Origin: Asterochloris sp. CNOR1
Lineage: Eukaryota; Chlorophyta; Trebouxiophyceae; Trebouxiales; Trebouxiaceae
DNA: 64,000 nucleotides
Assembly (NCBI GenBank): GCA_963969365.1
Contig: OZ017754.1
Span: 2,542,001 to 2,606,000 of the forward strand
Direction: 5' to 3'
Below the pieces are notes generated by a model. That model was not told the origin of the DNA and did not search any database. It saw only the letters and a program-made list of their open reading frames with translations. This document shows positions 2,392 to 64,000 of this stretch, one piece after another (position 1 is the first letter of the stretch; every line of letters starts with the position of its first letter). A program made the translations under genes and the position numbers.

Positions 2392-5300
2392 TCACCCAAA
2401 CTCATTGGCACGCCGCTTGTCCACACGGTAGATCCAGCGCTGGTACAGGTAGATCAGGAAGATGACGTCGTCCCTGAACACGCTGAGCCGGTGCAGGAGG
2501 GGCATCTTGATGACAAAGGCAAACAAATCGTCAATGATGGTGTTGAGGAACTTGAAGGTCATCTGACGCCAGGGGAGGGCGGCCACGGACTTGAGCTTGT
2601 AGTTGATGTACAGCTGCAGCAGTAAAGTGTGCACTGATAAGCAAAACCAAAAGTGGGTGAGTTGCCACATGTGGCGGAATGAGACTTGCAGCTATTCCAG
2701 CAGAATTGATCTGCCAATGACAAGCAATATCTGAATGGGAGAGGTGCATGGAACAGAAGCAGCTTGCCTGCAAGTGCACTTTTGCTGTTGGCAGGCAGTC
2801 ACAGTACCTGCTTGAATGTGTGCCTCCTGTCTGTCCCAAAGGGCAGTGCCAGCGAGGCAGAATAGCCTTCAGGGACAGGCTCTTGCAGGCTGCATTGTGT
2901 TGGATTCTGTCGGCACAGCTTTGCTTGCCTGGGGGACCATCATGATGAAACCAAAACTGTAGACCGCCCCCACGAGGGAGCTCAGCAGCCAGCTGTACCA
3001 GCTCTTGTGGGTTTTGTAGATGAGGGCGTACACTGCATAACAGGCCACCAGGGGGTACACCAGGTAGCTGGTGTACTGGATGGCCTCAGCGTCATACTGC
3101 TTAGTCTTGCTGGCGTTGTCGTAGCCTGCAGAGGTGAGCGAGATGTAAGTGTGTGCTTGATGATGCTGGTGCTGGCAGTGCATGTACGCAGGTGGGCACA
3201 GCTTGAAGCACGCAACCCACGTGTCAGCTGCAAAAGGCTTTCGGGGTGGCAAAACTTGCCAACGCAGTCTTGGTCTGCTCAAATGTAACTGGCTGCAACG
3301 GTAGCCAGCATGTCCTTCAGCAAGACTGCACATGCAGTGCCCATCTGTCAGCTTTTGGCTGCACTTGCATGCCTGCAATTACGGTGGGCTGCAGCGCCAA
3401 CACATCAGGGGAAGCAAACACAGACCTGCAGACTCACCATCTCCCTTCATTGGACATGCGGACTGAAAACAATTGAAATGCTTGAGGGGCCTGCCCCATG
3501 TGTTGGGTAAGCACTTCTAGGCATTGTTAGGCAGCATCACTGGCATGTCCCATGCTCTGGAACCCCAAGATAGGCCACATGTGTGTCATGCATCTATGAT
3601 GCTCTGGAACCACTCACCCTGCTTGTCCTTGAAGGCCAGCATGGGGAACCTCCCTGAGCGGTTAATCGTGACGTCCATGGCCTTCGTGACCTTCCAAAAC
3701 TCAATGGCCGTCCCGATGCCGCTGCTGGCAATGATCACCATGCTGGTCTCAGAGTCCAACAGGTACAGGAAGATGATCAGCTGCAGCGCAGCGTCATTGG
3801 ATGTTGGAAGCATGTGTTGTACAAGTGGTGCAGCAGGGGAGCAGGAGGACTCGTGTCTGGGATCATCCCAGGAATGATTGTAATTGCTGTGACATCTGCG
3901 CAGTATATTTGAGCCCTACAGGTGCAGCGTTTCTATCAGTGCCTTGGCATCAAGTCATTTTGCAGTGGAGGTAGTGGTGCAGGTGGTGACAGGGCAGTTC
4001 ATCCTTTGCAGGCATGCTGGCGGCAGCCTGCCTAGACTTCGCCAAGAAGCAGGCATGCGTGGCCAGCAGCAGCACAGGCAGTCAGTGCCCTGGGTGCACA
4101 AAACGCTCTGCTTATCTTTATCTTGCAGTCCCACAGTATTCACAGCTCTGCAACAGAAGCAGACAAGCACTTCTTGCTCACCCAGCAGGTACATCATTCC
4201 CACACGATGCCCACATGTCTGCCTGCAGGGCGCAACAAGCATGCGCGCCTCTGATAGCGCCAGCCCACCTGACAGAAGCAGTTGATGCCCACGGTCCTGA
4301 CAGACAGCCCCTCGACGCTCTTCTTGTTGCGCCAGAACCCAATGTCGTTCTTGAATGCGAAGAAGTCAAACACTGAGTGCAACAGGGACACCACGAAGGT
4401 AATGGCCAGGTAGATGGGGTTGCCCTCCAACAGGACTCGCTTGAGCTCGTCGGACTCTCCCTCTCCCATGGCACCCCAGGATTGCTGCACAGCAAAAGGG
4501 TACATGCTCAGCAGGCGTGCGTCCGGATTGGGTGACAGCAGGCGAAAGGGTTTCATGTTGCTCGCGCTCCTGATTTGCAAGAAAGCCAGGTGATATCTCA
4601 CTTCTGGCTGCAGTGCAGATGGGTGAGGTTCTGCTTTGACGCTCAAGCTTGTGGAGTGCCTTTGGACTCACTGGGCTGTTGGGACACGGCTCCAAGACCG
4701 CTGCATGGCAAGAAGCCAGACACTGGCTTGCTTGCCTGCAGATGTGGCACTCTGCCTGGGAACACCGGTCTGCATTTTTTGCAGCAGCCTCAAGCATGTG
4801 GAACGCGCCTCGCCACTAGCCCTGTCCACATGGCAGAGTGCTGACAGGCGGAACACAGGTCTGCTGATGCTGCACAGCTCACCCTGTGCTTGGAGGTGTT
4901 ACCCTCTGCCATGGGCCAATATTTTCACATCTGTCAGGGAAACAAGCTTTGCACCAGAAGAGAGTTTGCACTGCCTGGCAACCCCAGCTCTACTGTAGGG
5001 CGTGCAAAGCAGATCTGTCACACCGGCGTGCAGCTCCCCACCTGCATGTTGAAGCTCTGCTCCATCTGGGTGAAGATGGTCCACTTCCACATGCTCATCC
5101 CGCTGAGCGAGAAGTGCAGGGTGACCTCGTCCACGGTCTCATTCAGGGGGATCAGGTGATCTCGCAGCAGCCAGAACTCGTTGAAGAACAGGGTGGGCGC
5201 GTACTCCATGCGCACTGGGTCCAGGCTCATGTGAGGGGCTATCTGCAGCAATGAACCATACATCACAAACGAGCCAGAAGACTACGGGAAAAGGCCATAC

Positions 5301-8064
5301 TCCATGGGCACAGGGTCCCGGTTCGTGTGGGATGCCAGGTGCAGAAGGAAGGGAAGGAGCATGGTTGAAAGCTGGCGGTCCTGAAGGAAGGGATTGTCAC
5401 AACACCAGGGTGCAGACATGCGTGCGCTTCAACCTGCGCCTGCAGCAGGGAGACGCAAGCGTCTGCGCAAAGCTGCAAGGCATGCTGCCTGCACGACTGG
5501 CAGTTCTGCATGACCAGCTGGTTGCCACAAAAGACGCACAGTGTGAAGGTGGTGGGCCATCATCTCTTTTTGCAGCCTCTGCTGCAGTGTTGAGTGGACA
5601 TCAACGCCATAAGCTCTGCTGGGCATCAAGCTCATGAGGCTGACCATGAGACAGACTTCTGCCCAGCGGAAGTGTTGACAATGTGCGCCTGCTGCAGGGA
5701 TGACTTAGTTTCCACAGATGAAGTTGCTGTCAGCCCCAGCGCATGACTCAACCGGCAAGGTCGGCCCCTGGTCATGCTCACAGATTCTCACCCCGGCTCA
5801 AGCCTTAAAAGGCAGGTGCAGCCCAGCCCTGTTCTGACCTGGGCAGGGATGGCCTTGGCCCCATAGACCTGAAAGTCGTCCACCACTGCCACAGTCATGT
5901 TGGGCTTCAGATAAGAGATAATTTTGCGAGGGGCTGCTGCCAGCTCCTTCTGCTTTTCCTGCAGGTTTGAGAGCACAAAAGATGTTCCCAACTTGTTGTT
6001 TAGGAGGCAGGGCGCTGCCAGGTATTCTGTGCAGGCTGCAAGACAGGTGCAAAGCAAATGCACTGCAGGGACCAGGAGACGGCACCTCATGGAAGTTAAA
6101 TGCAGTTTGAAAGCACCTTTCATGCATTGATTAGTAACCAGTCTCACGCTGGGATTGTGTAGGGCCCGTGCGTGCAGCTGCTGGATGCATGTGTGCCTAC
6201 ATGATGCTCCTGGGCATTAGTGATGCAGTGATGAGTGCGTTGCGGAGGCTTTCTACAGAAGAGGGGTTGCGTGTCTGGTGATCGATGCTGGTACAGGCAG
6301 TGCCCATTGTACAACTGCTGTCTGCAGGGTGCTGGCGAGGTTGACAACATACCCCTTTGCACAAGCTGCGAAAAGGTCTAGTGTGCAGGGGCCAACCTGA
6401 CGGCCAAGTGTGCCCATAATTGCTTGCTCGCCAGCAAGCTGCACCTCTTCAGTCCTTGGGCAGCCCCAGGGGTGTGCACATGGCTCACTTGAGTGCTGAC
6501 TGAGCCTGAGTCGTCTTTGCTGGACAGCAGGTTGACCCCCGTCTTGTTGCGCATCTCTGGCAGGTAGGCCGTCAAGGCTGCAGCATGGGCACAAGTTTGC
6601 TCATCGACATCCGTGGCCAGCTGGCAACGTCAATGCACAGCGTGCAGGAGACAGCCCTGTCTGGCAGCAAGCCACTGCTGCTGTCATGTGTCTCTGATTG
6701 GCCGGCGTATCTGTCCGTCAGGTGTGACAGGACATCTTAAAGCTATAACTTGCAGGCCATGCGTGGCAGAGCTAAAACCATCCTGCTTAAGTTCTAAGCC
6801 CCACAGCAACCTTCTGTTGCAAGGCAGCAGGAGGGGCTGCACCCCTGCTTCAACATACGAGATGTCCATGACATGGGGGGCTCAGGCCGTGTCTGGAGCA
6901 CTGGCATCCTTGCAGAGCAGCCTCTGAGTGCCCACCATGAGTTTTCCAGAATATGGTGTCGGGGTCGAAGTCCTGCTCGCGTGGACTGGTGGGGCTCCCA
7001 GGGCGTGCAAACACAGCGTGCAAGTACACAGTGGCATTGTTGTGGGCTGCCTGCAGCATCATGGTGCGACATCGGTGTCAGATCTCGCAAATGCAATGTA
7101 GCTGTTTCGTGCTGCTGCTGAGGTCCTGCAGCAGCAGTATCTGGTAGTCATGTCATTGCGCTCATGCTCAGCAATAGACTGCCTGGCCATATCTGCTAAG
7201 CAGAGCAGCAGCAGAGAGCAACACTGCCATCTCCTCCATGCCCACCAGTGCAGGCTGATGCACCAGCGCATCCACCAAGCAGAGAAGCAGAAGAGCAAGA
7301 CCTGCTTGTGTTGCATGCCACCGATGAGCGTGTCAGACACAATGCTGCCAGGGCGAGGCCAGCTCAGCGTAGGTGCTGCCAGGCAGGCACCTCGCAGAGC
7401 TTGTACAGATAGGGGGTGGTCAGCTCAAGCCCCATGGCCAGGCTTGCACAAGCCAGGATGGCGACCAATGCCTCTCAGCAGCCTGTCGCATCTGCTGCGT
7501 GTGCACGGCCAGTGAAGAAGCACCCCTGTGCAACCTCTTGGCTTCTTTCCTGCTGCAACTTTGCCTGGCCCAAGATCAGGTCATAGTGAGCTCGCAGCAG
7601 GGTTGACCACCTTGGAGGGCTTGTACAAGTAGCTGGTGGTCAGTTCTGGTCCTGTGGCCAGTGGCACAGCCTGCTTGCTCCAGATGAGCTCCCCATCTGC
7701 CCAGGAGCTGCTCTCTGACAGGTAGAGTGCAAAGTCCTGCAGAGTCAGAACACTTGGGCTTGACAGCAGCAAGCACTGCTGGGAGCACTGCAAAGCTGAT
7801 TTGTAGAGTGACTGCTGACCAACACATCAGGCTCACCATGGGCTGGCTGCGATTGAATTTGGGGAGGTACATATCATGCCTATTCTGAACATTTGGCTGA
7901 GGCTTCTTGGCTCCTCCACCAAAAAACTGCTTTAGGAAGAAGAACATCATGACACACTTGACAATCGTGCCTGTCCAGCTCTCATTCCTCTGCTGCTGCT
8001 GACCATTGCCTGTGGCAGCGGCAGGCTGACCTGCAGCTTGCACTTGCTGGGATTGGGGCGGCAT
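2392..8064 (-). CDS. CLPTM1: CLPTM1 family transmembrane protein, complete
   Basis: Ten exons join in consistent phase: 8064-7837, 7736-7611, 7050-6936, 6577-6489, 5958-5839, 5242-5042, 4484-4269, 3780-3618, 3125-2929, 2613-2392. Total 1677 nt, 558 aa plus stop, typical of the CLPTM1 (cleft lip and palate transmembrane protein 1) family. After a Gln-rich start comes a hydrophobic anchor (VKCVMMFFFLKQFF). The luminal half has NNATVYLHAVFA, a Pro-rich loop and MSMWKWTIFTQMEQSFNMQ. The membrane half has HSVFDFFAFKNDIGFW, KTHKSWYSWLLSSLVG, LYINYKLKSVAALPW, IDDLFAFVIKMP and the C-terminus YLYQRWIYRVDKRRANEFG, all near-identical to the animal and plant family. Known members are ER/Golgi multipass proteins; animal CLPTM1 acts in receptor retention and the related CLPTM1L is a lipid scramblase, so the algal role is unknown. 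The start is the first ATG before the Gln-rich segment. The intron after 2929 begins GC (CAG|GCAAGC). Two introns carry degenerate copies of neighbouring exon ends. Confidence 0.95.
5200..5345. repeat. Partial exon duplication in CLPTM1 intron
   Basis: The 5' end of CLPTM1 exon 6 with its acceptor (5200-5248, plus-strand text ...tactccatgcgcactgggtcc...) recurs in the preceding intron at about 5293-5345 (...tactccatgggcacagggtcc...). On the minus strand the copy reads HTNRDPVPMEYG beside the real MSLDPVRMEYA. Confidence 0.75.
7385..7672. repeat. Partial exon duplication beside CLPTM1 exon 2
   Basis: The 3' part of exon 2 (7672-7611 on the minus strand) encodes ATGPELTTSYLYKPSK before |GTGGTC. 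A diverged copy downstream in the same intron (about 7445-7390) reads AMGLELTTPYLYKLCE and ends at GAG|GTGCCT, so both the frame and a GT dinucleotide are kept. Confidence 0.8.
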
Positions 8065-11300: not shown

Positions 11301-14300
11301 TGGGCAGGAGCGGCCGCACCCTGTGGGTTGCAGGAGCTCACACAATTGGCACGCCTATATTGGCCCCATCATATGCTGTGACTGGCAGGAGTGCAGCAGA
11401 AGGGCAGGCCTGTGCGGGCCCAGTCGCATGCTGTGACTGGCAGGAGTGCAGCAGAAGGGCAGACCTGTGCGGGCCCAGTTGCATGCTGTGACTGGCAGGA
11501 GTGCATTGCATCGGCAAGCCTGTGCTGTCTCATCCACACACTGTGACTGGCAGGAGTGCAGCAGAAGGGCAGGCCTGCACTGTCTCTCTCAGATGCTGTG
11601 ACTGGCAGGAGTGCTCCTACACAAATGTTTTCTCAGTCCCTGCCGCAGTCCCTGTGGTGGCACGAGGGCAGCCGGGCTGCGCCTGTTGGCAGGCCCGGCA
11701 AGTACCAGGGTGTCTAGAATCACGCACTTCACCCACACACTAGGGTTGTAAGTGCGCCCCCCCACTGGGCACCTCTGCAGAGCCAGGCACCTGAAGCAGA
11801 GGGCAGCAGCACCAGCGCCTCTGGGCAAGGCAGAGCACAGAGAGCTATGCAGCCAGCCTGCTTGCACTGGGATCCACCACAAGACAGCGACTCACTGATG
11901 TACCACTCTGCATCTGGAAATCGGTGCCACAGAAGAGCCCACCCAGGGATGTTTTTGTACCTACAGGAACAGGGTGCAGTTGGAAGCCAGCAGCAGGCAG
12001 GGTGGTGTTTCATGACCTGCAGCCCCAGTCCACAGCAGCAGTAGTCAGACGCTGTCTGCCTTGTAACGTTTGCATGGCGCACTCTGCAGGCACAGTAGAG
12101 GACGGCCGGGGGACATATAATAAGAGTGCAGACTGTCACCAGCAGCCTGCATTAGCTTGAGATGGAAGCTGCCTTGAGGTGATAGAAGCCCCCGGCAGCA
12201 CTTTGGCCCCAGCAAGACGCACAGACTGCCAGGAGATCTGCATTCCAATCTGATGACGATCGCTGCACTATCATTCGAATTGGCAGCCAGCTCTCATCTG
12301 CCAGCAAGGATGTGATTGTAGGGGCGTCTTTGGATGGAATCAGCCAGACTCCCAGCAGTCGGCACAGAGCCAGGCTTTCCACAGCCCAGTCTTCCTGTCC
12401 AGAAGGTGGCCCTGTGTTGCTCTGCCCCTCACACTAGCTGCCACACAGCAGGAGCATGGACAATCCAATTTGGCTCAGCCCACCTGGCCAAAGCGTAGCC
12501 CTGTATGGCACTGTTGCTGACGCAATTGCCATCCAGCAAAGTCATAGCTAGACAAAGATTGCCACGCCCACCTGTCCAGTATGTAGCCTTGCGTAGCCCT
12601 GTCACTCACACTGGCTGCTAGCCGCCGCCTCCTCAAACTGGGCTGCCGCGCCTTCACCTCCTGCTGGAGCTCCTTCCAGGATGTCAGGTACTCCACCGTG
12701 GCTGTGACCACATCCACAACTGCAAAGGGGCCCACAAAGTCTGCAGGCAGAGCATAGAGGGCGTAGAGGTAGAGGCCTTGGTGTGGAGGGCTGGACACCT
12801 TCCACCACTTTGAAAGGCTCCAGCGAATCTGCAGCAGGTGTGCTGAGGTGTGCCGTTGACATTGTCAAGAAGCACATCCAGCCTGCAGACACAGCATGCC
12901 TCTGTCCTCAACTGAGACAGCTCGATTGCTTCGGTTGCACATATTGGAGACGCTCTCAAACAGGTTGTACAAACTGCAGCCTGTACACTGGGGTGTGGAG
13001 CTAGGCCTGGGGACCCCCATCCGCGCTGCACTTGAATGGGTCAGGCTGACAGACTCATCTGGGGCCTGGCGCGGCAGTCTGTGAATCAGGCTTCACATGT
13101 TGCTGGCAGCAACAAAGCAAGCAGCAGTGCCCACAGTGCAGCTGCGCCAGCGGCAGACGCACTGCACCACAGAACCAAACACAGAAGCGTTTGAAGGCAG
13201 AGCAGATGTGTGCCTGCAATCCATTGCAGCAGCATAGCGCTTTACCCTGTGCGCAATGTCCAGGCTGCTCAGCTGCCGAAAGTCCTCTCACCCCTCAGAA
13301 CAGACTGGCATACCTAGAGCACCAATACTTTGAATGCAGCTCACCATGAATCTTGCTATGAGTTCTGAGCCATGTCAGCCAGGGCAGCAGCTGTCAGGCT
13401 TCCACCAGCAAGGCTCGGTGAACAACGGCAAGCACAGTCAGAACGTTCTCGCCCATCAACAGCCATTGCAGCAGTTGCAGCGCTTGCACAGTCTCAGTGT
13501 CTCCCAGCCTGCCCAGCCTGAGCTTACCCGCCGGCTTGTCCCCCACCAACACGAAATTCTTGACCCCTGACAGCCATGTCAGCAGCTGGATGGCACCCCG
13601 CTGCTGGGAGGCGCGGCTGCCGGTCTTGATCAGGAACGCCACCCTGTCCTGCCAGGGCTCGGCCAGCCTACTGCTGCCAGGCCGGGCGGTGGCCGCTGTG
13701 CTGGTCCAGTTGCTGATACTCTGTAGGAACATCTCCTCAAAAATGGTGTGTTCCCGCTCCAGGATTGCTGACTGCTGCTGCCCTGCAGGGGGCACCTGAG
13801 CCCCCAGCTGGGCTGCCTGCTGCTCCAAGAACACCTCATGCTTCACCTGAGCTGCCTGCTGCTCGTAGAGTGTCTGCACGTCCAGCAGCCCGGAGTGTAC
13901 TGCGGCGTCCCCATGTAGCTGTCGGGGCAGCTGTGTAGGCAGCTCTGCAGGCCATGTAGAGGGTGCTCAGACCAGACAGTCTGCAGCCTCACAGAGTGTT
14001 CTATGCCCGACAGGCCGCAGGAACAGCTCAGCCTGCTGCCTTGCAGAGCACTTGTGGGACTGGGTGTGCGGGCCACAGGCGCACTGCAAAGGACAGCTGC
14101 TTGTAGAGGGTGTCCAGCTCTGCCTTGAAGCATCGCTGCTCACAAGCAGATGGGCTTGTTGTTGTGAGCTTGGACACAAGTTCGTGAAGGTACTGCTGGC
14201 AAGGTATGCGTGAGCGCATGCAAGTGCAGGTACGTTGAGAGGGAGCTCGCAGGATGGTGCCACATGGTCCAGCCTGCAGTTTCCCACCTAGACTGTCCCC

Positions 14301-16158: not shown

Positions 16159-16233
16159 AGCTGTGATGACTGGGATTTCAAGGAGACCTCTGACAGATTG
16201 GGATCCACATATGAATGCTTTGACAGCTTGCAT

Positions 16234-19200
16234 CTAGTGAGTCTGATGGGCACTTGATGTGGCAGGTTGGGCTTCTGGAAGCTGTTGTACAGGGGCAGAG
16301 GGTCCAGGTGGGGCAGCTGCAGGCAGTTCCGGCCTCCCAGAAGCCGGCTGCTGCATGGGCACAGGCGCGTGCTGGGACCAGCCGCTGCCGACGGCTGGCA
16401 GTGGCGCCAGGTGGACATTCTGTGTGAGTGGCACTTGATGCATGTAACTGCCACCCGGCTGCGATGCTGCATCCATGTAGCCACCCTGGGATGCCGGCGC
16501 CTGCTGCTGCTGAGGCGCGGAGCCCTGCCCAGACATTGGCCCTGCAGGGCCACTGAGTGGCACAGAGGCCTGCTGCTGTGCCTGGTAGCCCCCATCCGCG
16601 CCAGGCGTGCTGTGTGGGGCTGCCCCGCCAGCTGTCTCAGCCACACTCTGCGGCACGACACTGCCAGCAGCGCTCGCCATGCTTTGAGGCCCCCCACTGC
16701 CACCCAGCGTTGGCATGCCGCCACTGGCAGCCTGGGTGGGTGCCGGCCCTTTCCCTGCAGCAGCCTGGGCGGCTGCCCGCGTGCTGATGACTGACGCCAC
16801 GGGGGTAGTCTCTGCCTTGACTGGTCTGGGCAAGCTGTCTACCACTCCCTGGGAGGCAGCGATGCCCAGCACGGCGGCCGCAGTCATGGTCTGGCGCTTG
16901 ACGTGGTTTGCATGCTGTAGCGCCTCCATGCCCGAGGGGTACTGGTGGCCCTGCAGCACAAGGGAATGGGGTGTGGCTGTTGGGATTGATTGCTTTCTGC
17001 AAACAATTCCTGCAGCATCAAGTATGCCGGGGGTGTCGCGTGGCTGCGGCACACAGAAGTGCTGGTGGCCCTGCGGCACAGGAGTCAGCAAGGGGTGGCA
17101 GGGCTAGGGTGACTAGCAGAGGATGGGAACTGTACCGACTATGCCTGAAGGGTCTGGAGGGTGCTGTTGCCCCTTCAGCTCAGGAGATGGCAGCACAGTA
17201 AATCGGCACTGGTGCCCAACAACGTTGGGATCTCCTGGTTGCACTTACAGTGGCAGCACGATTGATGCATGCCCCCATGTGCCTCCTTCTCGGGTTGCAA
17301 GCAGCCATCCACACCTCAAAGTACTTTGCGGCGCTGGCCACGTCGGTTGCCCGGCAGGCCAGCTCAGCCGCGTTTGGTGCGTGCACTGCCAGTCCGTCCC
17401 ACACCCAGCTGGGCGGCTGCGTGATGGCCCGCCCTTTGCCCTTGGTGATCTCCCACAGGCCCTGCATGCAAAGCCACGACTGAACAGGAATGTACTTGTG
17501 GTCCGCTGGTTTTTCCTGCAGGGGGCTGTGCTCTGCAGGAGAGCTCAGGGAAGGTGGCTGCACAGTGCAGGTACCTGACAGGTCTGGCGTGAGCAGGCTG
17601 GCTCAGAGACGCCGACTGTGCTGTGCCAATGTGCAGGCAGCAGCCCAGGGATCATCTCCCACAGGCAGTGCAGGGTTCTGAGCACCATGGCTGGCTCCTG
17701 ACGGCTACATGAAAAGCACGCTGCTTCCCCTTGATGGCCAGCTTTTTCTATGGTATCACACAGACCCCCCCTTTTCATCGCCCCGTGATTTAGGTCGACA
17801 CCAGAAAAGCATCCTTGCCAGTGCAGGGTGTAATTGCACGTAGTACATGCAGGAGTGTTGGCCTGCTTGAGGCAAAGTGTGTGCAGCGCAGGTCAGCACA
17901 TCTGCATTTGCCAAGACTCAAGAGCCTCCTGCTGCAGGCGCAGTCAGACAGGCAGCCCGCAGTCAAGCTCTTCCTGCTGCAGGCAGCACATATCAGGCAG
18001 CCCACAGTGAGGGCCACCCTGTTGCAGGCGCACCTGCATGCTGTGCAACCACACGCGCTGAAGGGCCATCTCCGATGGCACTCTTCATGCTCCTGCCAGC
18101 GCATGAGTATTGGCTTCCCACATGCATGCCCTGCACCTGGTTTGTTGCGCGACACCCCAGCAACACACTCAAACCTCCCCATCACCAGCTTCTCATGTGC
18201 ATCCCAGCCTCACCCCCCAGGCCACCAGCTTCTCGTACGCCTTGTACTGCTTCCGCGTCTTGGCGGTGCCCCGACCACCACTCGAGGCAGCCTGCAGTGC
18301 CTGGCCCCGCCCGCCGCCGCTGCTGTAGCCCCGGCCTGCAGCCAGCAGACCACGAAGTCACGTTTCTGTCCGACGAGGTGACCTGCAGCGCTGGCCACGC
18401 CTGTTGCTGCTCTGGTAGCTGCGGCCTGGAGGCAAAGAGCAGCGTGACGGTCCTTCCGAGCAGGCTGTGTGGTTGAGTTGTGCCCTGCCTACATGACACC
18501 GACTGCAGCGTCTGCCCCAGCCCGCAGCTACTGTTGAAGCCTCAGCCTGCAGGTGGCAGAGCCGCAGATTGGGACCTTAAGTGTTGGGCTTTGTGCACCT
18601 GCTATCGCTCGAGGCAGTCTGCGGCGCCTGGACACGCCCCTGCCGCCCCTGCTGCGGCATGCAGGCAGGCAGGCAGCAGAGTCAGCCATGCTGTCTTCAG
18701 AAGATGCAAGGTGCCACTATGTGTGCCCTGCGTCATGCACATCATAGCGCTGCTCAGGTACGGTTGCCAGTCAGTCCTGTTGCACCACACAGGGATGCAG
18801 GCTGCCAGAGCAAAGCGCCGTCACAAGGGCGGGCAGCTGCAGAAGGGCCCTGTGAATGTGCCTCCTGGTGCTACTGAAGTGGGTTTTCATGGCTCCAGCA
18901 CCCGCTGCAGCTACATTGAAGGAGCAATCAAGAGGCATCAAGCTCACCGTCAGTGTCCCAGCTGTTGTTGGCGCCCAGCCTGCTCGTGGTGTACATTTTG
19001 ACCTTGGGTCGCTTGGCTGCAGGCAGACGCCAGCACATGCTGACTTGACTTTCTCATTGCTGCACTTTCAAAACATGAGGCTTGCATTTACTGGCAGGCA
19101 CCTCCCCCATCCGTGGGGATGTAAGGCTTCAAGCTGTCACACAGCGAGATCTGAAAGTGCTGCCAAGTCACGGTTGTCTGCAGATTGCAAACATTGCCAG

Positions 19201-25900: not shown

Positions 25901-27353
25901 CTGCAAGCCAGCATCTTGTTGAGTTCAGACGTGCTTGCATGTAGAGTAGGGCCAGGTTTGCCCAGGTTTGATCTTGGACTGGCCATGCACATGCTGGAGA
26001 GTCACGAATCAGACTGATAAACTCACCTTGCATCTGGCAGTGGCATGTAGCACCTGACTGCAGCAGTGTCTCAAACCGGGTGCAGACAGGAAGCCTGCCC
26101 CCTGTCACCTGTTCTGCCCTTTATGCCAGCGTCTCAGCCGGCGACAGCAGCATTGAAGTCAGGGCAAGCGCTCTCATCAGGGGCTCTTAGTCGACGCCTG
26201 CTATTTGTGCCTGCAGGCCAGCGCCTCAGCTGGCGGCAGCAGCGCCAGCGCCAGCGCGCAGGCAGCGGCCACTGTGAGCGCCAACGCTTTTGGAATCCTG
26301 CAGCAGGTCGCGGTGCTGCCCGGCGCCGACCTCTGCTGCCTGGGGCAGGCCTTAGCCAACGAGCTGCTGGCGCTGTCTGCAGCCAACTCTCCACAAGTGG
26401 GTGCACTGCAGCTCATGAGCATTCTGCTGGAAGGGCACTGTTGCCTCAAGCAGCGCCTCAAGAGTGTGGACGCTAAAGCTGACTTTCTTGCAGTGAAGGC
26501 CTCTTGCAGGCCTGGATGCACTTACAGTGAGGCCTGTTTTTGTGTGCATTCACGCGTGTGCTTGACTTAGGTTCCACCCTGTGTGGGCCATGCCTCTCAG
26601 GGTGCTCAAGCTGATTTCTGTTGGGTAAATACAATATACAATACAATAAATACAACCACCCTGGATCTGGTGGCGTCCGGCAAGGCAGCATCTGCTGAGC
26701 ACTAACGCCTATTGTGCCGTTGCTGTGCAGTTCCTGCCCACGGCAGCAGCAATCACCAGCATCATCTTCGGCTTGGATCCCTCCTTGAATGAATTGGCTA
26801 TTTGCTTCGTCACCACCTTTGCCAGCGGCTTTGGGAACAGCTGCTCCCCGCTGGTCGCCGTGTTTGCTTGTGAGTACTGCACTGATCTTCCCAGCATCAG
26901 GCGACAGGGCATCACTCCTGGCGCCGCTTCATGTTGCTCTCGGCTGTCTTTGTATGCTGCAACAACTGCACACACCAGGTGGTGCATCATTAAGGAGTCG
27001 TTACATCATGACCACTCTTTAATGCCACCCGGCCTGTGCTGCCATGGCAACTGCAACTCCACTGCATTGCCCTAGCCTTAAGGGACTCAAGCATTCAGCT
27101 GCTGAGTGTGCACCCCAAACCCTAACAATGTACCCGCTCTACAGTGGCCTTTGCAGAGGCAAGCAGCCTGGGCACCACAGCCAACTTCGCCTCTGTCTTT
27201 TCGCAAGCCACAGCAGCGGCCACAGCATCTAGCTTCACCACCCTGGCAACATGCCTGAGCATCCCAGTCACTCCAGGGCAGGCCCTCGCCCCAAGCGTTG
27301 TCAGCAGCGCCCTTGCACAGGCCTCAGCCACTGCAACAGCCAGCAGCGGATAA
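22959..27353 (+). CDS. Secreted Pro/Thr- and Ala-rich protein, copy 1
   Basis: I do not recognise a named family. Exon 1 (22959-23019) encodes a signal peptide (MASKWAAWGALLAML). Exon 23167-23239 joins in phase and is Cys-containing (STTSACSSRICKQACT). A linker exon from 23952 encodes PPPGPVQPAPTGPTN-like and PPPVTPQPTQ-like repeats, then Thr/Ser-rich sequence, up to CTGCAC|GTGAGC near 24500. A short exon (about 24751-24834) ends CTASASAE. Then five clean exons follow: 25087-25254 (168 nt), 25532-25615 (84), 26217-26396 (180), 26731-26869 (139), 27145-27353 (209, to TAA). They encode Ala-rich repeats such as ATASAFAEA with scattered Cys (GADLCCLGQALANELL). An extracellular or cell-wall protein is the natural inference. 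Exons between 23239 and 23952 are not resolved. The proline-rich and Thr-rich parts of the linker are in different frames (see findings). A paralog lies at 30155-37262 in inverted orientation. Confidence 0.75.
24178..24310 (+). repeat. Coding repeat PPPTQ / PPPVTPQPTQ
   Basis: Near-perfect short tandem units inside the proline-rich linker exon, for example two copies of a 30-nt unit coding PPPVTPQPTQ at about 24237-24296. The minus-strand Gly-rich frame over the same bases is a shadow. Confidence 0.8.
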
Positions 27354-46800: not shown

Positions 46801-49800
46801 GAGCCTCTGAGTGCTCTGACATACGAACCAGACAGGCGCTATGCAACAGCCATGATGTCTTTGAAGCCGAAGACTGCAGCTGCACTGGCAGATTGCTCAC
46901 CAGCTGTGGCAAGGCGCACATTGCGTTCTGCCTTCAGTGGTGTTGCCAAACTGCACACAGCCCACCAGCTCCGCAGCAATGGTGAAGCATTCAAGATGCC
47001 CCACAACCCAGCTTGTCCAGCAATGCTAGTGCTGCAGATGCAGGCGCCCACCAGCTCCACTGCGATGGTCAGCCTCTTGCGCTGCTCGACAGACAGCCCG
47101 CTGATGCCTGGCAGGCCCACCAGGCTGTCCCGCAGTGGGGTCAGGTCCACCAGCGCTAGCACCTACATACGTGAAGCACTGGCCAGTCTCAACAACTGCG
47201 ATCACAGCAGCAGCGCCTGCACAAGCTGGCCGCCGGTGTGAGATGGAGGGGTGCCCAAGGCATGCCTGGCACCACAAAGCACATACAAGGTGAGCTGCAC
47301 CACGGCGCAATACTTGCAGCACGGGTGGCCAGCAGAGGGTGGCCTGCTGCAGTGTTGTGCAGACTCGGGCGCCCTTGGGCAGCTCCAGCACACATGCCAG
47401 ATGACAGGCATCTCCCATCAGCAATGCAGCAGGGCTTTTGTATTGAGAGATCCCATACAGGGGCCTGCTCACATTCTCAGCAAAGGCCCGCTTTGTCCTC
47501 TCGTTAACGTTGCGCTCCAAGCGGAGCGTGGCTGAGAACAGCAGTGCCTCAAACACTGTTGCCGAGGGCGAGTGGATGTCAGTCTGCAGCAAACACACAA
47601 TGAGATGGCTTGAGCGCGTTAAGGGGTTGTGCATGAGGTTGCCAGCGCAGCCACAGGGTTGGTGGCTGGCCTCTAAAGCTCTTGTGATGCATGCTGTGCG
47701 CATGTAGGGGGCTGTGTCAGCAGCGCGCTGCACGAAGAGCTGGCGCGTTCCTGCCGACTGAAGAGATGCTCAGCGCTCATCAAGGTATTGGCCAGCCCAC
47801 ATGAACAGCCCCGCTAGTGCACACACACAGCTCTAGTTGTACAGCCATGAATGAACAGCCTCACCTGCTCTACATAGCCCATGACTCGTGCCAGGCTGGC
47901 CCGCCGCTTGGGGTCGCCATTCATCCTCTGCTCCCCAGTTGTCCTGCCTCCTGTCTTGCGGTCAGCCAGGACGTCCTGCAGAGGTGGGGTGTGTCACTGC
48001 TGGCTGCCCCTGTGCCATAAAACCACCAGCATGTCACAGAGAAAGCATGATTGCAGCCACTGAGATGCACGAGTTCTGGGGCTGTGCTGGCTGCATGCAA
48101 CGAGGCTCTCAGCACGATGCAGCAGCCTCTGGTGGCTAGCAAACAGGCATGCAACTCAGTATACCTTTTCACCCTGGCACACTGCTAGCACGCAAGCCCC
48201 AGCATGAACACAGGTGCAGCTGGACTCGCATCTCTGCCACACTCAGGGATCAACGCCGCAGTCCAATGCCGTTTGCTCACCATCCTGCAGCAGGACAGGG
48301 TGTACTCAGGCGGCTCTGAGCGTGGCATCGAGGCATCCCCAGCTAGGCATAAGCTGCGCAATGATAGCAACTTGAACAAAGCCATGGAAACAGGGCCGGG
48401 CAGACATTGGCTCGGTACTCACAGAGTGGTCTTCCCGGCTCCTGAGGCCCCCTGCAACAGTGCAACCAGGAACTCGTGCCGAGTGTAATTTGCGCTGATT
48501 CAGAATGCGCAACAGATACACAGCAACACTGCCAGAGCCATAGTGCTGGTGCAGAGCCCACCATCAGGGCTGTGAGGACCTTGGGACGGAAGACCCCCGA
48601 GATATTCTGCAGCAGAGGGCAAGGTTCCAGTTGAGTTGGCGACTCGACAGCTTGCAGAAGCACTGAATGGGTCAACACCTCCCTTGAAGGGGCAAAAAGC
48701 AGCAGTGCATTAGGGGCACATCAGTTTGCCCAGTTTTACATAGCGTTTGGGCCAGAAGTCTTCTCAGAGAACGGTGCTTCCCAGGGAACCAACCTTGAGC
48801 AGCTGAAGCTCCTGCTTCTTTCCCAGCAGGCCCTTGCTCTTGGCTCCAGGCATGGGCACAAAGTAGTTGACGTCCTGCACAAAGCAGAACGGAATACAGA
48901 GGCCTGCAGACCAGCTTTATGCTCCTGCATGCAGCCCCAGCAGTGCGCCCCAGCAAGCTCTCAGCCAGCCTCCCTATGAAACAATCAGGCACCTCCCAAG
49001 CCTGGGGAGCACCCCTGTCCTCTCGCTGCCCCTGCTTGACCAACTTGAGAGGTGAGAAAGTCCAGCCACCACTGGGCTGTACAGACAAGCACCACCTCAA
49101 CTCCTATTTCCAGCACGAGCAGGTTCCCCCTGTTGCATGGATATCCCTGCCTGCTTGCTCAGCTGAAAGCTGTGAGCCCCCCACCTTGAAAGTCAGGACC
49201 ACCGCCTGGAAGGGAAGCAGCAGGCCGCCTTCCTTGACCACCTTCTGGCTGTTGGTCATGTTCCTCGACGAGATGTTGCGCTGGCTGGGGCGCACTGCCT
49301 GACCGGGAACCCCTACGTCAAAGTCTGAGTCAGCGCTGCCCTCCACTGGGTGGGCGCGCACTGACCTACTGCGGCCGGCGGGGACCATGCCCCCCGCCTC
49401 GTCAAATTTATTGTCCTCAGAGGTGCTGATGGAGCCCTGCAGGGTGCAGGCACAGCTGTGTTCAGTCAATCGCATGGGCGCGCACTGCCTTGCCGCAGCC
49501 GGCAGGACCATGCCTACAGCTGGGTGTGACATCTGTCAAGGCGCTCATGAAGCCCTGCAGATTGCAGTCAGGGCTGTGCGAGCCAGGGCTGTGGCCCATT
49601 GGGCTGATCCACCACAGCAAGAGAATCCAGATGTGTCGCACTTCCTGATTCAGGTCTGCAGGGTAAAGGTCACATTTGATGACAGTCTTGAGGTGCCTTG
49701 CACAGGGCAGACCACAAAACGTCCTGCAGCGTGTTGGGGTCCTGCCCTTACCTGGTCAAGTATGTCATCCCTCAGAGGTGCTGGTCAAGACCCATGGAGA

Positions 49801-52800: not shown

Positions 52801-55800
52801 GGCCCAGCATGCGAGCAATGGTGCCTTCAGATGAAACGGACCACCCGAGCAGAAGTGGCCCACACTTGACTTGAGTCAAGCCTGCACGGTAAGCGGTTGC
52901 AGTGCACACATTACAAGTCTTGCTGCGGCCACACTGCAGCGTCCACTGGAAGGCTGTAGTGGTAGCACACAAATGCTTTGCACTTATCTTGTTCTTGTTC
53001 TACCATAGACAAGCATTGCTCCATTTGCCTTGTGTGACCGTGCTCTGCATCAACTTGTTGCTAGTAGGATGGGCGCAATAAGCGTACCACAGGGTACAAG
53101 TACTTTGCACAAGCAGAGCATGCATGAACCCTACACAGAGTCCAGATGACAAGGTACATGACTAGCAACCCTGCAACACACTTGCCTGCCAGCATTCTTG
53201 GAGAAGCCCACAGCAAAGTAGTGGATGCACACCCACAGCGTCGTCTGCCAGATGGCAAAGGGGATATCAAAGAGCGCCTTGGGCAGCACAAAGCACCAGG
53301 CTGGGAAGAACCTGCAGTAGAATGCCCCACACTTGGTCAGGCAGCTGGACAGGGTAGCACAGATGGGACTGCAGCACTTTGGAGCTCTGAGGGTTGAGAG
53401 AGGTGGCCCAACTGCAGACATTTTGACTTGTGTGCTCAGCAGGTTAGAAGAGCTGCTAGTGCTTCCGGTTCAAGTGTGCTGAGCAGGTCAACAGAACTGC
53501 TGTGGCCGGAAGTATGACACTCCGCCGAAGGTGCTCTGTGCCGCAGAAAGCAGAGTGGTGCCGCACCACTGGAAGTCATTCGGCACGAAAGCAAGCATGA
53601 GCAAGTGGCCATGTGTCCACTGCCCTTGTGAGCCCTTAAGTGCCCAAGGTTGCTGGACCTACCTGTTGCTGCGCTGCTTGTAGAAGTTTGACAGGCCCAG
53701 CACTGTCTCAGGGATCTGAAGGTATGATAAACCGCCTCAGTGAGTGCCACAGGCCTAAAATCTGAAGACGTCGGTGTAGTGCTATCTCAGGCAGCCCCTT
53801 ATAGTCAACAGAAGCATCCCTGCCAAAGCATTGCAGCTGCACTGCTGATGTGCAAACAATCATGAGAAATGGCATGACTAAGCAGCAAGGAGGAGTGCTT
53901 GACTTGCCGAAGCTGACGTAAGATGGTCAGGTGCCAGCTGGTCGCTACAGGAGACACTAGACATGGCTGCATCCTCCCAGCTCCAGCCTCACCTGCCAAC
54001 ACAGTACGCAGAGTGCAAACAGCCTCAACGGGACTCCCACCTTGCCAAAGCCAGCAAATATGGCGATGAGGGCAGTGAAAAAGATCTCCAGCAGGAAGAG
54101 GTTGGCGCCCTCTTGGGACGACTTGCTGGGGTGGAGAAAGGCAGTTGCAGACAGGAAGGAGAGGTAGCAGATCTGCAGGCACCAGTTGAGGGCCATGAGA
54201 CAAGAGCTGCAGCAGCACATCTACTTGCAGACAGGAAAGGGGGCCAGGCATGCGGCAGGCACAACATGGGGTGCATGCTTCAAGCAGAGCGCTTTGGCCT
54301 GCAGGAGGAAGCGATGAGCACAAACAGGCTTGAAATGGGGTGCGGAGATGTAGCTGCAGAACACTTCAAGATTTGCAGTAGCAGACAGTAATTGCCAACA
54401 AACAGGATGACCAATTTGCAGGCGCAGCCTGGGTAATGTGATGCAGCCTGTGGGCTAGCAGGAGACATTACACGAGGCAGGCAGATCGCCGGCGCACAAC
54501 AAAATGTGCACAAGTCTGTGGTGCATGCAATTATTTTGAACCTGTGGCTGCAGACTCATGGCTTAGCACAGGTGCTGGCAGGAAGAAGATCTTTGCATAC
54601 TGCAGACAAGATAGCAGTGCAAGTAGACGAAAGCAGCACCGACAGCGGTGCCAAGGAAGCAGCAGGTCTCTGCTGGTCTTCAGAGCAAAGTGCAGAACAG
54701 TGGGCCCATCCAAAAAGGGGGGGCGGCACACATAGCTGTGTGCACAGTGTCAGCCCAAGGGCCCAAATAGTGCAAACAGAGGCCTACGTCACCATGAGCA
54801 AAGTACAGGAGGCCCACCTGGAAAGTGCTGCTGTAGAAGGCAAAGGAATTTCTGTAGAATAGCCTCCACTCGCGTCCCATGCAGGCTTTGAAGGCCTGGT
54901 GCCAGGGCAGCCCATACTTGGTGGTCACAAGTGACCGCATCTGGCGCTCACTGCCCTGGAAGGGCTGGGCCAGCTCAGACTCAAGTGCTTGGCCCCACTT
55001 GCTCTTCATGAAGGCCCTCTCAATAACCTGCAGGCAGCAATGGGCCATGGAAATGTGAGGGTGGGTTCAGTCACTAGTCAGTGCCTGACCCCACATGCTT
55101 AGAAACCCCTCATCCAATGCAGGAGGGGCCAGGGCAACCATGTGAGGGCTGAGCCAGCTCAGGCCGCAAAGCCCGGCCCCACTTGTTCCTGCCAAAGACC
55201 CTCAAGGTAGCATACAGCAGCCAGGCTCAGATACGACTGCCTGCCCCTGATTGCGTGGCTGCCCTCACCAGGGGCGTCAGGAACAAGGAACTCTTGTCTG
55301 CCCGGTAGGCTGCCTGGTCGGCCGGCAGGGTCACGTCCTGCAGGAAGTCAGCCACCCCCTTGTCCTCCGGGCATTGCAGACCGAGGCCGTTGAAGAAGTT
55401 CATGACCTGCAGGGCAGCAGTGGGCATGCTCACTCTGCCGGTGATAATTGATGGGACCCCACCCTGCTGGGCACCTATCCCATGCCCTCCACCACCCCAG
55501 TGCAGGTCTTTTCATCACTCTGCATGCACTGTCCCACGCAGCAGCAGCAGAGGCTGCGATAGCTTGGAGACATGGCCATCAGGATAGCTGGAGGGCAAAG
55601 CATGAGGCTGGTCGTGCACATAAAGTCTCATGTGTACACCGTGCAGTGGCAGACAAGCTGCTACCCTGTGCCAACCAGCCAGCTGCCAGCTGGTCTTGCT
55701 GCTTGCAAGACTGCCTCAAGCAGGGCACATCATCTAGTACATCTGTGCCAACCAGCAGGTTGCCATTTGGCATCACTGCAAGCTCGCAGGCACTGCAAGC

Positions 55801-58800: not shown

Positions 58801-60883
58801 ATCTGTAGGCAGGTAGAGGCACTGTTGAGCTTGCCATACCAGTCCACCAAGAGGCATTTTTCACATACGCAGAGCACTGCTGCCCTGTGACTTACACCAG
58901 CAGCCTGTGCTGACCCTAGGAGGGCTGGCGCAGGCATTCACTCGCCTGCCAAGGACATCAAGACAGTTTGCAGGGCAAGGGCAGCATCCCTGGCAGGTCC
59001 TGTCCTGAGTATGCATGGCCCTCTGGAGTACGGATGGCCAGAAAGCAAAGCAAAGGGTGAAGAAGCACTCGCCTTGAGCAGCCCGCCATTTTGTATCTTT
59101 CCTGACAGCACCTTCAGCAGCGTGGACTTGCCAGACCCAGGCGGTGCCAGAAGCAGGCACATGCGGCCCTGCAGGGAGGCACACAGCTCAGCGCACAGCT
59201 TCTATCACCCCTGCACTGGGGTTCAACCCTAACCCTAATGTCAGCCAGATATGTGTGACTCAAAGACTCTCACAGCACAGAGAGCTGCTTAGCGGGCAAG
59301 CTCGCAAGTTGTAATCCCAAGACGACAGCATGCAGCATCTGCAATAAGGACTGCATTCGATCCCACGATCTCCCTCAATTCAGCATTCGTATGCAATTTG
59401 CAGCACTCACTGGTCTCAGGACGCCGCTGACTCCCTTCAGTATCTTGATCTGGCTGCTCTTGGTGGTGCGAATGCCCAAAAACTTTGTGAAGTACTGCAG
59501 GGCGGGCAATCAGGCAGTGAGAGCAGGGAAATCTGACCAGAAGGCAGCAGAAGCAGATCTGCAGCCTTCCAGCGGGGCAGCGCTGTGCAATGCGAAGTTG
59601 TGGACTGCCGAACCCATCACCAACATCTGTCTGGGGTGCATGCTGGCATATAGGCTGCCTGGGCAGCAACATGCCCCAAGCAGCGCGGTCTAGAGTCAGG
59701 GCCCTTGGCCACATGGCAACAGCAGAGGGGACAAGGGGTTCAACAGCTGAAGTCCTGCTGTTGCAGCCCCACCTCAAGGAAGCCAATGGCTGCGTTCTTG
59801 AAGTTGGGGAGTCCGGCGCTGCCCACGCGGACCTTGGCGTCCACTGTCACGTTCTGGAAACGCACCTCAATTTTGCTGCGCTCGATGCCAGCCCTGCACA
59901 TGCGACAAGAGACGTCCTTTGCATTCTGCTGTGAAGGTCACTGCAGGTAGGCATGCGGCTGAGGCAACGCAGCCAACAACTTGCTGGGCAGCGCGTCAAC
60001 ATCGTTGTGGTGTCCTCTGAGCACCTCTGGTGGCATGCATGCCCTGTCCGCTGTGGCACAACAAGCTTGTACTGCCAGCCCACCCCTTGGCTGTTCCCAC
60101 CTGCCCTGATGCTGCTTAGACTGCTGAGCACTTTCTGTTGAACCTGATTGTCCACTTCACTGCCCTCCCTGGCAGGACCTTCCATTGCGCCCGTGTGTTC
60201 AGCTTATGCCATCCAGCCCCGCCCCTGGCCCGTTTCCTATGCTTTTGGCAGTGTTCCTTGCCACAAATACCTCAGCTCATCACAAGCACCCCCAACTCAT
60301 GCTGTGATGAAAACGACCAGCTATTTTCGATGTGGAAAGCCAGTGCCTCGCTAGACAATGCGACATGATTGCACCCAGAGTTGAGCCCCTGTGTTACACA
60401 AGATGCAAATATGCGCCTTTTGGGACCACCCCTTTTTGGGTAATGAACTATTGCAAATCACCCTGGGAGTACCAGCCAATGTCAGCTTCAGCCTGTGTCT
60501 TACCTGTCCTGACGCTGCTTGATCTTGCTGAGCAGCTTCTCATTGTCCTGATCATCCACCTCCATGGCCCGCCTGAGCACGTTTTGGCGCGCCTGCTTGT
60601 TCAGCCGCCTCACGTCGATCAGCTCCATGTCTATTTTCTTGCTGCCCAGGGGTAGGACAGCCATCCGGCTGCCGTGAGGGTGCGCCTTCAGCTTCTCCAG
60701 GGCAGCTTTCTGCAGCTCCTCTGTGTCATCCGCCTCTTGCCTGTAGCAGAGTAGGGCAGAGGTGTCGATACTCTGGAAGACCTCAAGTTGTTCACCAAAA
60801 GAGCCCTCTGAGGAGCGTCTGCCATGTGTCTGCAGCAGAGCAGGGCGGCAAGCCAAGTGTATGTACGGCAGTGATGTGCCCAT
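40816..60883 (-). CDS. PDR-type (full-size ABCG) ABC transporter
   Basis: A plasma-membrane-type exporter by family, with the (NBD-TMD)x2 order of pleiotropic drug resistance transporters. NBD1: [20 protein letters not shown] (Walker A, exon 59168-59073), GGNITYNG and YVQQNDQHY (58802-58702), [16 protein letters not shown] (58114-58068), [12 protein letters not shown] (signature, 57070-56926), [10 protein letters not shown] (Walker B, 56610-56557), [13 protein letters not shown] (56279-56104). TMD1 includes [20 protein letters not shown] (55027-54818), 54172-54041, 53715-53663, 53311-53186, 52590-52432, 52092-51978, 51715-51662, 51352-51289. A linker (from 50464) precedes NBD2: [10 protein letters not shown] (48451-48423), [20 protein letters not shown] (about 47150), [13 protein letters not shown] (about 46650), [32 protein letters not shown]2 includes [35 protein letters not shown] (41809-41742), [18 protein letters not shown] (41352-41197), and the last exons 41000-40924 and 40826-40816 ending FLNFQSR-stop. 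The N-terminal exon ends at 60504; the start at 60883 is tentative. One exon between 54818 and 54172 was not found. Substrate unknown. Confidence 0.93.
42884..43140. repeat. Triplicated exon start in PDR gene
   Basis: The acceptor and first codons of the exon coding [12 protein letters not shown] (minus strand, from about 42925 downward) recur twice in the upstream intron, near 43020 and near 43125. The copies read [12 protein letters not shown] and [10 protein letters not shown], each after CTGCAG. Confidence 0.8.
49349..49560. repeat. Partial exon duplication in PDR linker region
   Basis: The 5' end of the exon that starts [16 protein letters not shown] (49349-49445 on the plus strand) recurs upstream at about 49450-49560. 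Shared plus-strand blocks are gggcgcgcactg, ggaccatgcc and gagccctgcag or aagccctgcag. Confidence 0.7.
50581..50612. repeat. Poly-G tract in PDR intron
   Basis: A G-rich run (GGGTGGGGGGGAAA followed by about 17 G) in the intron before exon 50464. On the minus strand it is a poly-C pyrimidine tract about 115 nt upstream of the acceptor. The length may be a sequencing estimate. Confidence 0.85.
54960..55215. repeat. Partial exon duplication in PDR gene
   Basis: The start of exon 55027-54818 (plus-strand text ggctgggccagctcagactc, then ggccccacttgctcttcatg) recurs in the preceding intron at about 55140-55215 (ggctgagccagctcaggccg, then ggccccacttgttcctgcca). Confidence 0.75.
60095..60565. repeat. 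Partial exon duplication at end of PDR N-terminal exon
   Basis: The donor end of the N-terminal exon (60497-60565; cttacctgtcctgacgctgc ...) recurs in the following intron at about 60098-60160 (cccacctgccctgatgctgc ...). Both include a plus-strand ACCTG, that is CAG|GT on the coding strand. Confidence 0.7.
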
Positions 60884-62726: not shown

Positions 62727-64000
62727 TCATGTGGCCTCCTGAGAAGCTCCATCCTGCTGCTCCCGCTGGTCCAGCAGACGCTTGATGATGTCATGGACTG
62801 CTCTCGCTGAAGGCCGCTGGGAAATTGGGCGCTCCAAACCTGCAGACGTGGGCCTCAGTGTGGTGTCCTGCCTGCATCACTGCCCTGTGTGCTAGTCCAG
62901 GGCAGCAATCTCACTTTGGACAGCGTGATTCAGTGTCATGCCGCGCAGTCAAGTTCCTCTAGACACCAGTAATACAGCACAGAATTGCTGTCTTGATGCC
63001 ATTCAGCACATCAATGAGGTCTGCTGCTGCTGAGAGTTGGGGCACTGGCCAATCACACACAATAAGGGCAGCAAGTGCAGGCTAGCGCCATCGCCTGCAC
63101 TTGCAGACCGCTCAGAGTCAAGATTCAAGGGAGCGTGAAGAGAGGCTGCCTGCATGTCCACAGCTGCCTAGCGCACGTGATAATATGCCGCACGCATCCC
63201 TGCTGAGGTGCTTTCAAGAGCTGAATATCTGGCGAGATGGTGTTGCAAAGCACCAGCTGCATAACCTAAGTCAGGTGCCTGAGCTCCGCTAGACTACAAA
63301 GCTGGGCAGCAGTGGAGCGCAAATTAGTCAGCAAAGCCTGTCGCCCTGCTTACATGCGTCGATGAGGTCGGCAATCTCTGCCGGGCACTCCTGCGGCGTG
63401 TCAGGGCGACGTAGCTGGCCCCTCAGCGGCACCTCCTTGGTCACCACCTCCCTGCAGGGCAGTGTGGTGCAGTCTTGTGGAACTGCCACCGCCACCAGCA
63501 GTTTGCTGGCTTTGATGCCCTGCTCCCAGTCGAAGGCCTACCTGTTGATGCTGCAGCAGTAGCTACTCGCTGCTCATGATACAGCAGTTCCCACACTCTC
63601 TTTCTGTCCTGAGTTGCACAATCTGCTTCTGCTAGGAGACCAGAACAATTCGCCCGCTCAACAGGTTGCCAGCCAGACAGGTGTGCCTGCTGTAGAAGAG
63701 GGCGCAGTGCAGGGGACTGCATGCACAGCCAGGCTCCAGCTGGCCTCCATCGGGCCACTTGCTCCATAGGCAAGTGGAGACTGCCTCATGCAGCCAGGCC
63801 AAGTCTGCCTGCTCACCAGAGCACCACGCCAAAGCTCCACAGGTCTGCCGCAGGCGTGCAGCGCTCTCCCAGCAACACCTCTGGGGCTGCAGCATGGAGC
63901 AGGCAACATGTCACAAGGGCCATGTCATGCACATCAACAGGCAGACTGTTGCTGGCAGCAGGCATGTTGCCTCTCCCAAAAGAACCTCTGGAGCTGCAGC
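62727..64000 (-). CDS. Serine/threonine (TKL-like) protein kinase, C-terminal part
   Basis: Three exons of the C-lobe join in phase. 63886-63817 gives APEVLLGERCTPAADLWSFG, the APE motif and the invariant Asp of subdomain IX. 63451-63354 gives EVVTKEVPLRGQLRRP and ECPAEIADLIDAC. 62839-62727 gives SQRPSARAVHDIIKRLL, the subdomain XI Arg, then a short tail to TGA. The phrase T.EVP.RGQLR..  ..PEECP.E...LI..C is typical of algal and plant tyrosine-kinase-like (Raf-like) kinases. The N-lobe, catalytic loop and any receptor part lie beyond the window edge. The substrate is unknown. Confidence 0.85.
63855..64000. repeat. Partial exon duplication in kinase gene
   Basis: The start of exon 63886-63817 (minus strand CTGCAG then codons for APEVLLGERC) recurs at the right edge of the window (about 64000-63965) as APEVLLGEATC after CTGCAG. 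The outer copy soon diverges and reaches a stop codon, so the inner one is the likely functional exon. Confidence 0.75.

Follow-up and report, generated by a model that had tools for sequence, protein, structure and literature searches.

Degenerate copies of exon ends in introns of Asterochloris sp. CNOR1 as probable remains of short tandem duplications

Genes and local direct repeats in the window

The stretch of DNA analysed here, called the window throughout, is a 64-kb segment of contig C9 (OZ017754.1, 2542001-2606000) from Asterochloris sp. CNOR1, whose genome comprises 56.4 Mb in 21 contigs. It carries predicted genes for CLPTM1, a GT31/Fringe-like protein, a CW-domain protein, PITHD1, PDR, and a kinase-like protein, as well as two genes referred to as secreted copy 1 and secreted copy 2. 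Short segments at exon ends of these genes are found again, in degenerate form, in the adjoining introns, and the origin of these copies is the subject of this work. A preliminary description of the window named seven genes that hold them (CLPTM1, GT31-like, CW, secreted copy 2, PITHD1, PDR, and kinase-like), and pairs are indeed found in all seven.

The main sample joins the window to the 200 kb upstream of it, which gives 264 kb with no N; counts refer to this sample unless another is named. Exons were predicted with our own two-strand hidden Markov model gene finder, which started from a generic codon model and was then self-trained. Third-position GC taken from long open reading frames offered no bias that could be used to seed it. 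The output comprises 59 genes and 620 exons with a median intron of about 250 bp (254). The learned splice consensus is TGCAG/G for the acceptor and CAG/GTGAGC for the donor (slash at the junction). The acceptor is very sharp (T 0.94, G 0.93, C 0.97), which self-training may have accentuated. A Pfam check covered six of the 12 gene models that touch the window. The CLPTM1 matches (4e-73 and 3e-47) are divided between two gene models, the zf-CW and Fringe matches fall within one merged model that also holds part of CLPTM1, the PITH match (2.5e-43) covers nearly the full domain, and ABC transporter/PDR matches were found as well. The gene models therefore include both merged and split genes.

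Comparison of the window with itself yields 30 local matches at E<=0.1, which are divided into 26 direct matches (some overlapping or in arrays) and four inverted ones, all of them self-palindromes. At a threshold of at least 28 bits, the window contains 28 non-overlapping direct pairs, 15 of which match exon with intron. When the 264 kb are searched in 2.4-kb tiles for copies 45-1000 bp apart, 223 direct matches of at least 30 bits are obtained versus 8 inverted ones (120 versus 7 after the removal of overlaps), in agreement with the earlier statement that the copies are local and in the same orientation. The spacing is below 400 bp in 185 of the 223. Displaced controls give 11 direct matches at a tile offset of 3 kb and 15 at 6 kb, and dinucleotide-shuffled sequence gives 2-8, with blocks of 60, 120, or 300 bp. 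Local direct duplication is real. Chance and composition were considered as sources of the repeats and are ruled out by the inverted, displaced, and shuffled controls.

The duplication recurs in unrelated genes and adds to their introns, as had been proposed. For the 85 detectable pairs that have at most one exonic copy, lie in one gene, and are spaced by at most 450 bp, the spacings total 12.4 kb, which corresponds to 7.9% of the predicted intron sequence. This suggests a measurable contribution of such duplications to the length of introns, of about 8% for the pairs detectable here.

Polarity of the copies and their relation to splice junctions

The copies follow a rule of polarity, in which a donor-side copy lies in the downstream intron and an acceptor-side copy lies in the upstream intron. 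At a threshold of at least 28 bits, this rule is obeyed by 31 of the 33 exon-intron pairs that span a single junction (16/17 acceptors and 15/16 donors; two pairs with two junctions were excluded from the count), and within the window by all 15 exon-intron pairs. Random placement gives a polarity of 67% (SD 11%), and a share as high as the observed one arises in 0.75% of 400 simulations. Replication samples were taken from single 10-kb sites on C9 (at 0.6 Mb and 1.5 Mb), C5, and C14 and from 50 kb of contig C1 (1000001-1050000). Polarity holds in 8/8 pairs at the four new sites and in 2/2 on C1, which brings the overall count to 41/43 (binomial P=9e-6 against 67%). Of the two exceptions, one falls within a stretch with internal repeats, and the other belongs to a gene model that has a score of 0. 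Pairs with no junction in the alignment behave alike, with the copy located beside the nearer exon end in 26 of 28 assigned pairs (of 29) in the 264 kb and in 5 of 5 assigned pairs (of 6) at the four new loci. Polarity offers a test, applicable to any genome rich in introns, by which tandem duplication can be told apart from local duplication to a random side.

This test bears directly on repair-mediated local capture, in which synthesis-dependent strand annealing would place a copy of a nearby segment at a break that lies a few hundred bases off. Such copies could fall on both sides and perhaps in both orientations, and those in introns would survive. The lengths and distances found here resemble those of short local and repair-mediated duplications, and most alignments cover part of the spacing only, both of which speak for capture. 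Copying to a random side predicts about 67% polarity, however, and is disfavored by the 41 of 43 pairs; inverted copies are likewise very few, whereas the available part of the paper on repair duplications (PMC2671141) includes an exon copied in the opposite orientation. Repair-mediated capture is thus an unlikely source of the copies. According to the same part of that paper, vertebrate short local and repair-mediated duplications include exons and splice sites, their rate declines with time, and short local duplications are cited under the name "doublets." The copies described here are similarly short and local and include exons and splice sites. The vertebrate set, as far as that text goes, differs in that copies <=50 bp apart are dropped as tandem and an exon copy in the opposite orientation occurs, whereas here nearly all copies are direct and the polarity is strict.

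The copies had also been described as centred on the junction, which holds at low thresholds and is lost at higher ones. Junction-spanning pairs of exonic with nonexonic sequence account for 35 of 140 pairs at >=28 bits (random-placement null 0.159, z=3.0) and for 32 of 120 at >=30 bits (null 0.172, z=2.8), but for 21 of 91 at >=34 bits (null 0.198, z=0.8). An earlier enrichment run at 33-45 bits gave no significant exon-intron junction excess (z -0.4 to 1.1), and pairs with a junction in both copies were in excess. At 28 bits, nonexonic pairs are depleted (33/140, null 0.421, z=-4.5), exon-exon pairs are enriched (43/140, null 0.207, z=3.2), and a predicted junction is present in both copies of 24/140 pairs, an excess over the null of 0.077. 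When both-junction pairs are listed without an edge margin (n=28), 18 align a like site within 3 bases (11 acceptor-acceptor and 7 donor-donor); by our own labels, 17 of these 18 are exon-exon and one is nonexonic. By inspection, several both-junction pairs contain frame-shifting gaps, which makes it probable that one member is a decayed copy mistaken for an exon, and others sit within repeat arrays, including repeat-protein arrays.

Tandem duplication and selection as the probable origin

The pattern is probably made up of fossils of ordinary short tandem duplications on which selection has acted, and no new mechanism would be needed to produce it. Tandem duplications with a unit of about 50-400 bp would hit the genome at many positions. 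A unit with a single splice site in it would leave the protein intact, because the first donor (or the last acceptor) would still be used and the extra exon piece would become part of the intron. Selection would remove units that lie wholly within an exon or take in more than one exon edge. Subsequently, the intronic copy would drift while the exon copy would be held by selection, and through this slower decay of the exon copy, exon-intron pairs would stay recognizable for longer than intron-intron pairs. Mainly the exonic part and the splice signals would remain alignable, which would give the appearance of exon ends copied into adjoining introns. Three ingredients can therefore suffice for this appearance: duplication in tandem, selection acting on the protein, and a lower rate of decay in the exon copy. 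Candidates for the molecular source are the fill-in of staggered breaks followed by end joining, or slippage. In mouse and human cells, breaks with complementary overhangs that are filled in and joined lead to small tandem duplications (PMC8355091, available part). Those duplications are direct with short units, as are the copies here, and head-to-tail, as these probably are too; they are a plausible source of the copies; that text concerns short (<100 bp) insertions in mouse and human cells, and the breakpoints here are too decayed for comparison.

Some pairs are near-complete tandems, namely those at 49351 (110/124), 33946 (58/69), and 33362 (96/87), given as aligned columns over spacing. 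Weak extra similarity at the tandem register is also found beside the exon-intron alignments (Wilcoxon P=0.008). The process was simulated by placing tandem duplications at random and purging those that lay inside an exon, covered a whole exon, or touched more than one exon. Noncoding sequence then drifted, exons changed at 0.15-0.3 of the noncoding rate, and the aligner and bit threshold were those used for the real data. In the simulation, nonexonic pairs begin to be lost at about 0.2-0.3 substitutions per site per copy, and exon-intron pairs last longer, which explains the depletion of nonexonic pairs; one simulated nonexonic detection ratio is >1, as its numerator includes junction-type proposals with the exonic part unaligned. 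Over the age cut-offs, the simulated junction-spanning share is 25-37% in the first run, 30-36% in setting A, and 16-33% in setting B, which has a high indel rate. In 8 of 12 summaries it is 30-37%, compared to a strict observed share of 35/97 (36%) among pairs in which no more than one copy is exonic. For ages >=0.2, the simulation gives 0.32 nonexonic, 0.31 junction, and 0.37 exon-only pairs; the observed numbers are 33, 35, and 29 of 97. Empirical spacings and a lower exon rate change the result little. Splice signals are unconstrained in the simulation, and its junction shares are therefore probably too low.

Several observations weigh against tandem duplication with selection. When the 18 like-with-like pairs are included, the generous junction-spanning share is 53/114 (46%), which is above the simulated 30-37% in every summary (P 0.0002-0.024). 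A high indel rate combined with older ages leads to too few junction-spanning pairs (16-27%), for which the 35/97 has P<=0.025. The median aligned share of the spacing is 0.33, and full-unit tandemness is inferred by way of an old-age model rather than seen; among nonexonic and exon-exon pairs, the similarity of the flanks does not reach significance (P=0.25 and P=0.7, respectively). Contig C1 shows a small direct excess, with 7 direct and 2 inverted raw matches at >=30 bits, and the exon calls beyond the six Pfam-checked proteins depend on our own gene finder. Finally, young copies are scarce. Among pairs of >=40 bp, 2/108 show >=90% identity (1/89 in the 264 kb, 1/17 at the four loci, and 0/2 on C1), where a constant rate predicts about 22% (P=1.4e-9); the 264 kb without their exon-exon pairs give 1/60 (P=7e-6).

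The preliminary description spoke of duplication biased to, or retained at, junctions. Retention is the part that stands, whereas targeting is not needed to reach the strict share, although the generous share lies above the model. A mechanism that targets splice junctions, such as RNA-templated repair from pre-mRNA or spliceosome-linked breaks, would copy exon ends into introns and could account for that generous share, for the junction-spanning excess at 28-30 bits, and for the both-junction pairs and their register. The same mechanism is at odds with the missing excess at higher thresholds, with a strict share that matches tandem duplication plus selection in most summaries, and with the abundance of nonexonic and exon-exon pairs; the both-junction pairs are also in part decayed copies called exons and in part repeat-protein arrays. 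Junction targeting is very unlikely on this evidence, and a modest junction excess may be present.

The copies show no clear coding constraint, which bears on the proposal that they feed alternative exons. In 56 exon-intron pairs of >=30 bits, the substitutions per codon position are 0.169/0.197/0.249, so that second positions are not the most conserved, and gap totals break the frame in 15/56. Across 635 codons, the copies have a pN/pS of 0.72, in line with constraint on one copy and none on the other, and contain 5 in-frame stops where 8.3-10.1 are expected (P 0.05-0.15). Splice dinucleotides are kept as previously noted, with 11/15 donors (GT 9 and GC 2) and 16/18 acceptors (AG), a retention that is favored by the requirement that alignments extend beyond the junction. 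The slight shortage of stops and the many dinucleotides kept would suit copies maintained by selection as alternative or mutually exclusive exons; given the pN/pS, the codon positions, and the gaps, this is highly improbable, and the proposed feeding of alternative exons is not sustained. The least probable reading of all is intron birth through a duplicated AGGT-bearing exon piece (the Rogers model, as given in the available introduction of PMC4974935), which shares with the copies a tandem duplication near splice signals but predicts that donor aligns with acceptor, as in 2 of the 28 both-junction pairs, whereas most align like with like and the other 8 (6 donor/acceptor pairs and 2 acceptor pairs) are out of register.

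Tandem duplication with selection also has a counterpart in the potato RdRp gene, in which, as described in the available part of PMC4974935, a tandem genomic duplication across an intron-exon boundary recently gave rise to a new intron. In both cases, the splice junction lies inside the duplicated unit and the splice signals are carried along; the potato intron is recent and new, whereas many old decayed copies within existing introns are found here. The pattern had been put forward as undescribed, which finds no support in the cited texts in their available parts, as boundary-crossing tandem duplications, short local doublets, and break-derived small tandem duplications are already in print. 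Among the openly licensed papers listed, no genome-wide account of exon-end copies was recognized from titles and the starts of abstracts. The copies described here form a rich and old set of an already known type.

Age, regional density, and features along the window

A constant-rate duplication model was considered and is ruled out by the identity distribution. Tandem Repeats Finder reports 0/18 rows at >=95% and one at 90-95% for periods >=45, and 16/52 rows at >=95% for periods of 10-19. In the 264 kb, identical 40-mers recur at a distance of 45-1000 bp in four places, all of which are multi-copy arrays, one being the window array. The missing young copies may reflect a slowing of long-unit duplication, a loss of young copies in assembly, or unusually fast divergence of fresh copies. 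It is unlikely that long-unit local duplication stopped long ago or that copies diverge very fast at first; if true, either a former burst limited to some parts of the genome or a mutation process that acts on fresh duplicates would be new. In the PITHD1 region, an exact 36-bp repeat is present in 2.2 copies (38592-38670); short-unit duplication looks recent there, and long-unit copies are nearly all old.

The density of the copies differs between regions. The four 10-kb sites hold 7, 5, 3, and 8 pairs of >=30 bits, and the 50 kb of C1 hold 3 pairs versus 22.7 expected from C9 (P=3e-7). The uneven regional density and the missing young copies are both worth dating. By eye, the C1 segment is ordinary gene-rich DNA, with about 8x fewer local duplicates per kb than C9, and its predicted introns are shorter (median 185 versus 254).

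The pairs of the window are listed in Table 1. The intron-only pair at 33946-34072 stems from the same duplication process away from predicted junctions.

Table 1. Exon segments and their decayed copies in the window, with two intron-only pairs
Feature	Position	Strand	Remarks
CLPTM1, exon segment near acceptor	5202..5233	-	84% identical to copy 96 bp away; Pfam CLPTM1
CLPTM1, intronic decayed copy of 5202-5233, upstream intron	5298..5329	-	self-comparison
CLPTM1, exon end and donor site (exon copy)	7608..7661	-	76% identical to 7388-7441
CLPTM1, decayed copy, downstream intron, 220 bp off	7388..7441	-	self-comparison
GT31/Fringe-like gene, exon end up to donor	12571..12618	-	Fringe match in same merged gene model
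GT31/Fringe-like gene, decayed copy, downstream intron, 177 bp off	12394..12441	-	79% identical
CW-domain gene, acceptor and exon start	18281..18349	-	self-comparison
CW-domain gene, two decayed copies (18503-18560, 18608-18680), upstream intron	18503..18680	-	
Secreted copy 1, exon start 26217-26243 and upstream intronic copy 26125-26151	26125..26243	+	36.5 bits
Secreted copy 2, exon end and donor	31649..31722	-	self-comparison
Secreted copy 2, decayed copy, downstream intron, 132 bp off	31517..31585	-	similarity continues into intron
Intron-only duplicate pair, away from any predicted junction	33946..34072	-	58 aligned columns, 69 bp spacing
Intron-only duplicate pair, 173 bp apart	35179..35424	-	self-comparison
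PITHD1, acceptor and exon start 38845-38881; upstream-intron copy 38771-38807	38771..38881	+	Pfam PITH
PITHD1, exon end and donor GTAAGG	38958..39011	+	self-comparison
PITHD1, decayed copy with donor GTGAGG, downstream intron, 240 bp off	39198..39251	+	
PITHD1, acceptor region 39610-39645 and upstream copy 39493-39528	39493..39645	+	92% identical; classed nonexonic, as only 6 bases are exonic
PDR, acceptor and exon 49351-49460; near-adjacent upstream copy 49475-49578	49351..49578	-	110 aligned columns, 124 bp spacing, 70%; Pfam ABC/PDR
PDR, exon segment 54961-55004 and upstream intronic copy 55145-55188	54961..55188	-	35.6 bits, weak
PDR, N-terminal exon end and donor	60502..60605	-	self-comparison
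PDR, decayed copy of 60502-60605, downstream intron, 403 bp off, donor kept	60099..60203	-	69% identical
Kinase-like gene, acceptor and exon 63847-63893; upstream copy 63955-64000	63847..64000	-	kinase label by eye from translation

Further features were noted in passing. A TGGCA-type array lies in a predicted intron at 9659-10185 of the window, with a 138-bp higher-order unit repeated about 2.8x (9812-10185). An imperfect palindrome of about 130 bp at 32945-33073 is 80% self-complementary and carries a 12-bp GTATACACAGAT repeat near its center. The predicted proteins at 22998-27353 (+) and 30155-37262 (-) are rich in alanine, serine, and threonine and look related by eye. Contig C9 has two loci ahead of the window, at distances of about 59.8-58.4 kb and 51.6-50.0 kb from its start and 8 kb from one another; each contains an exon-bearing direct repeat of >1 kb, both at a spacing of 332 bp.

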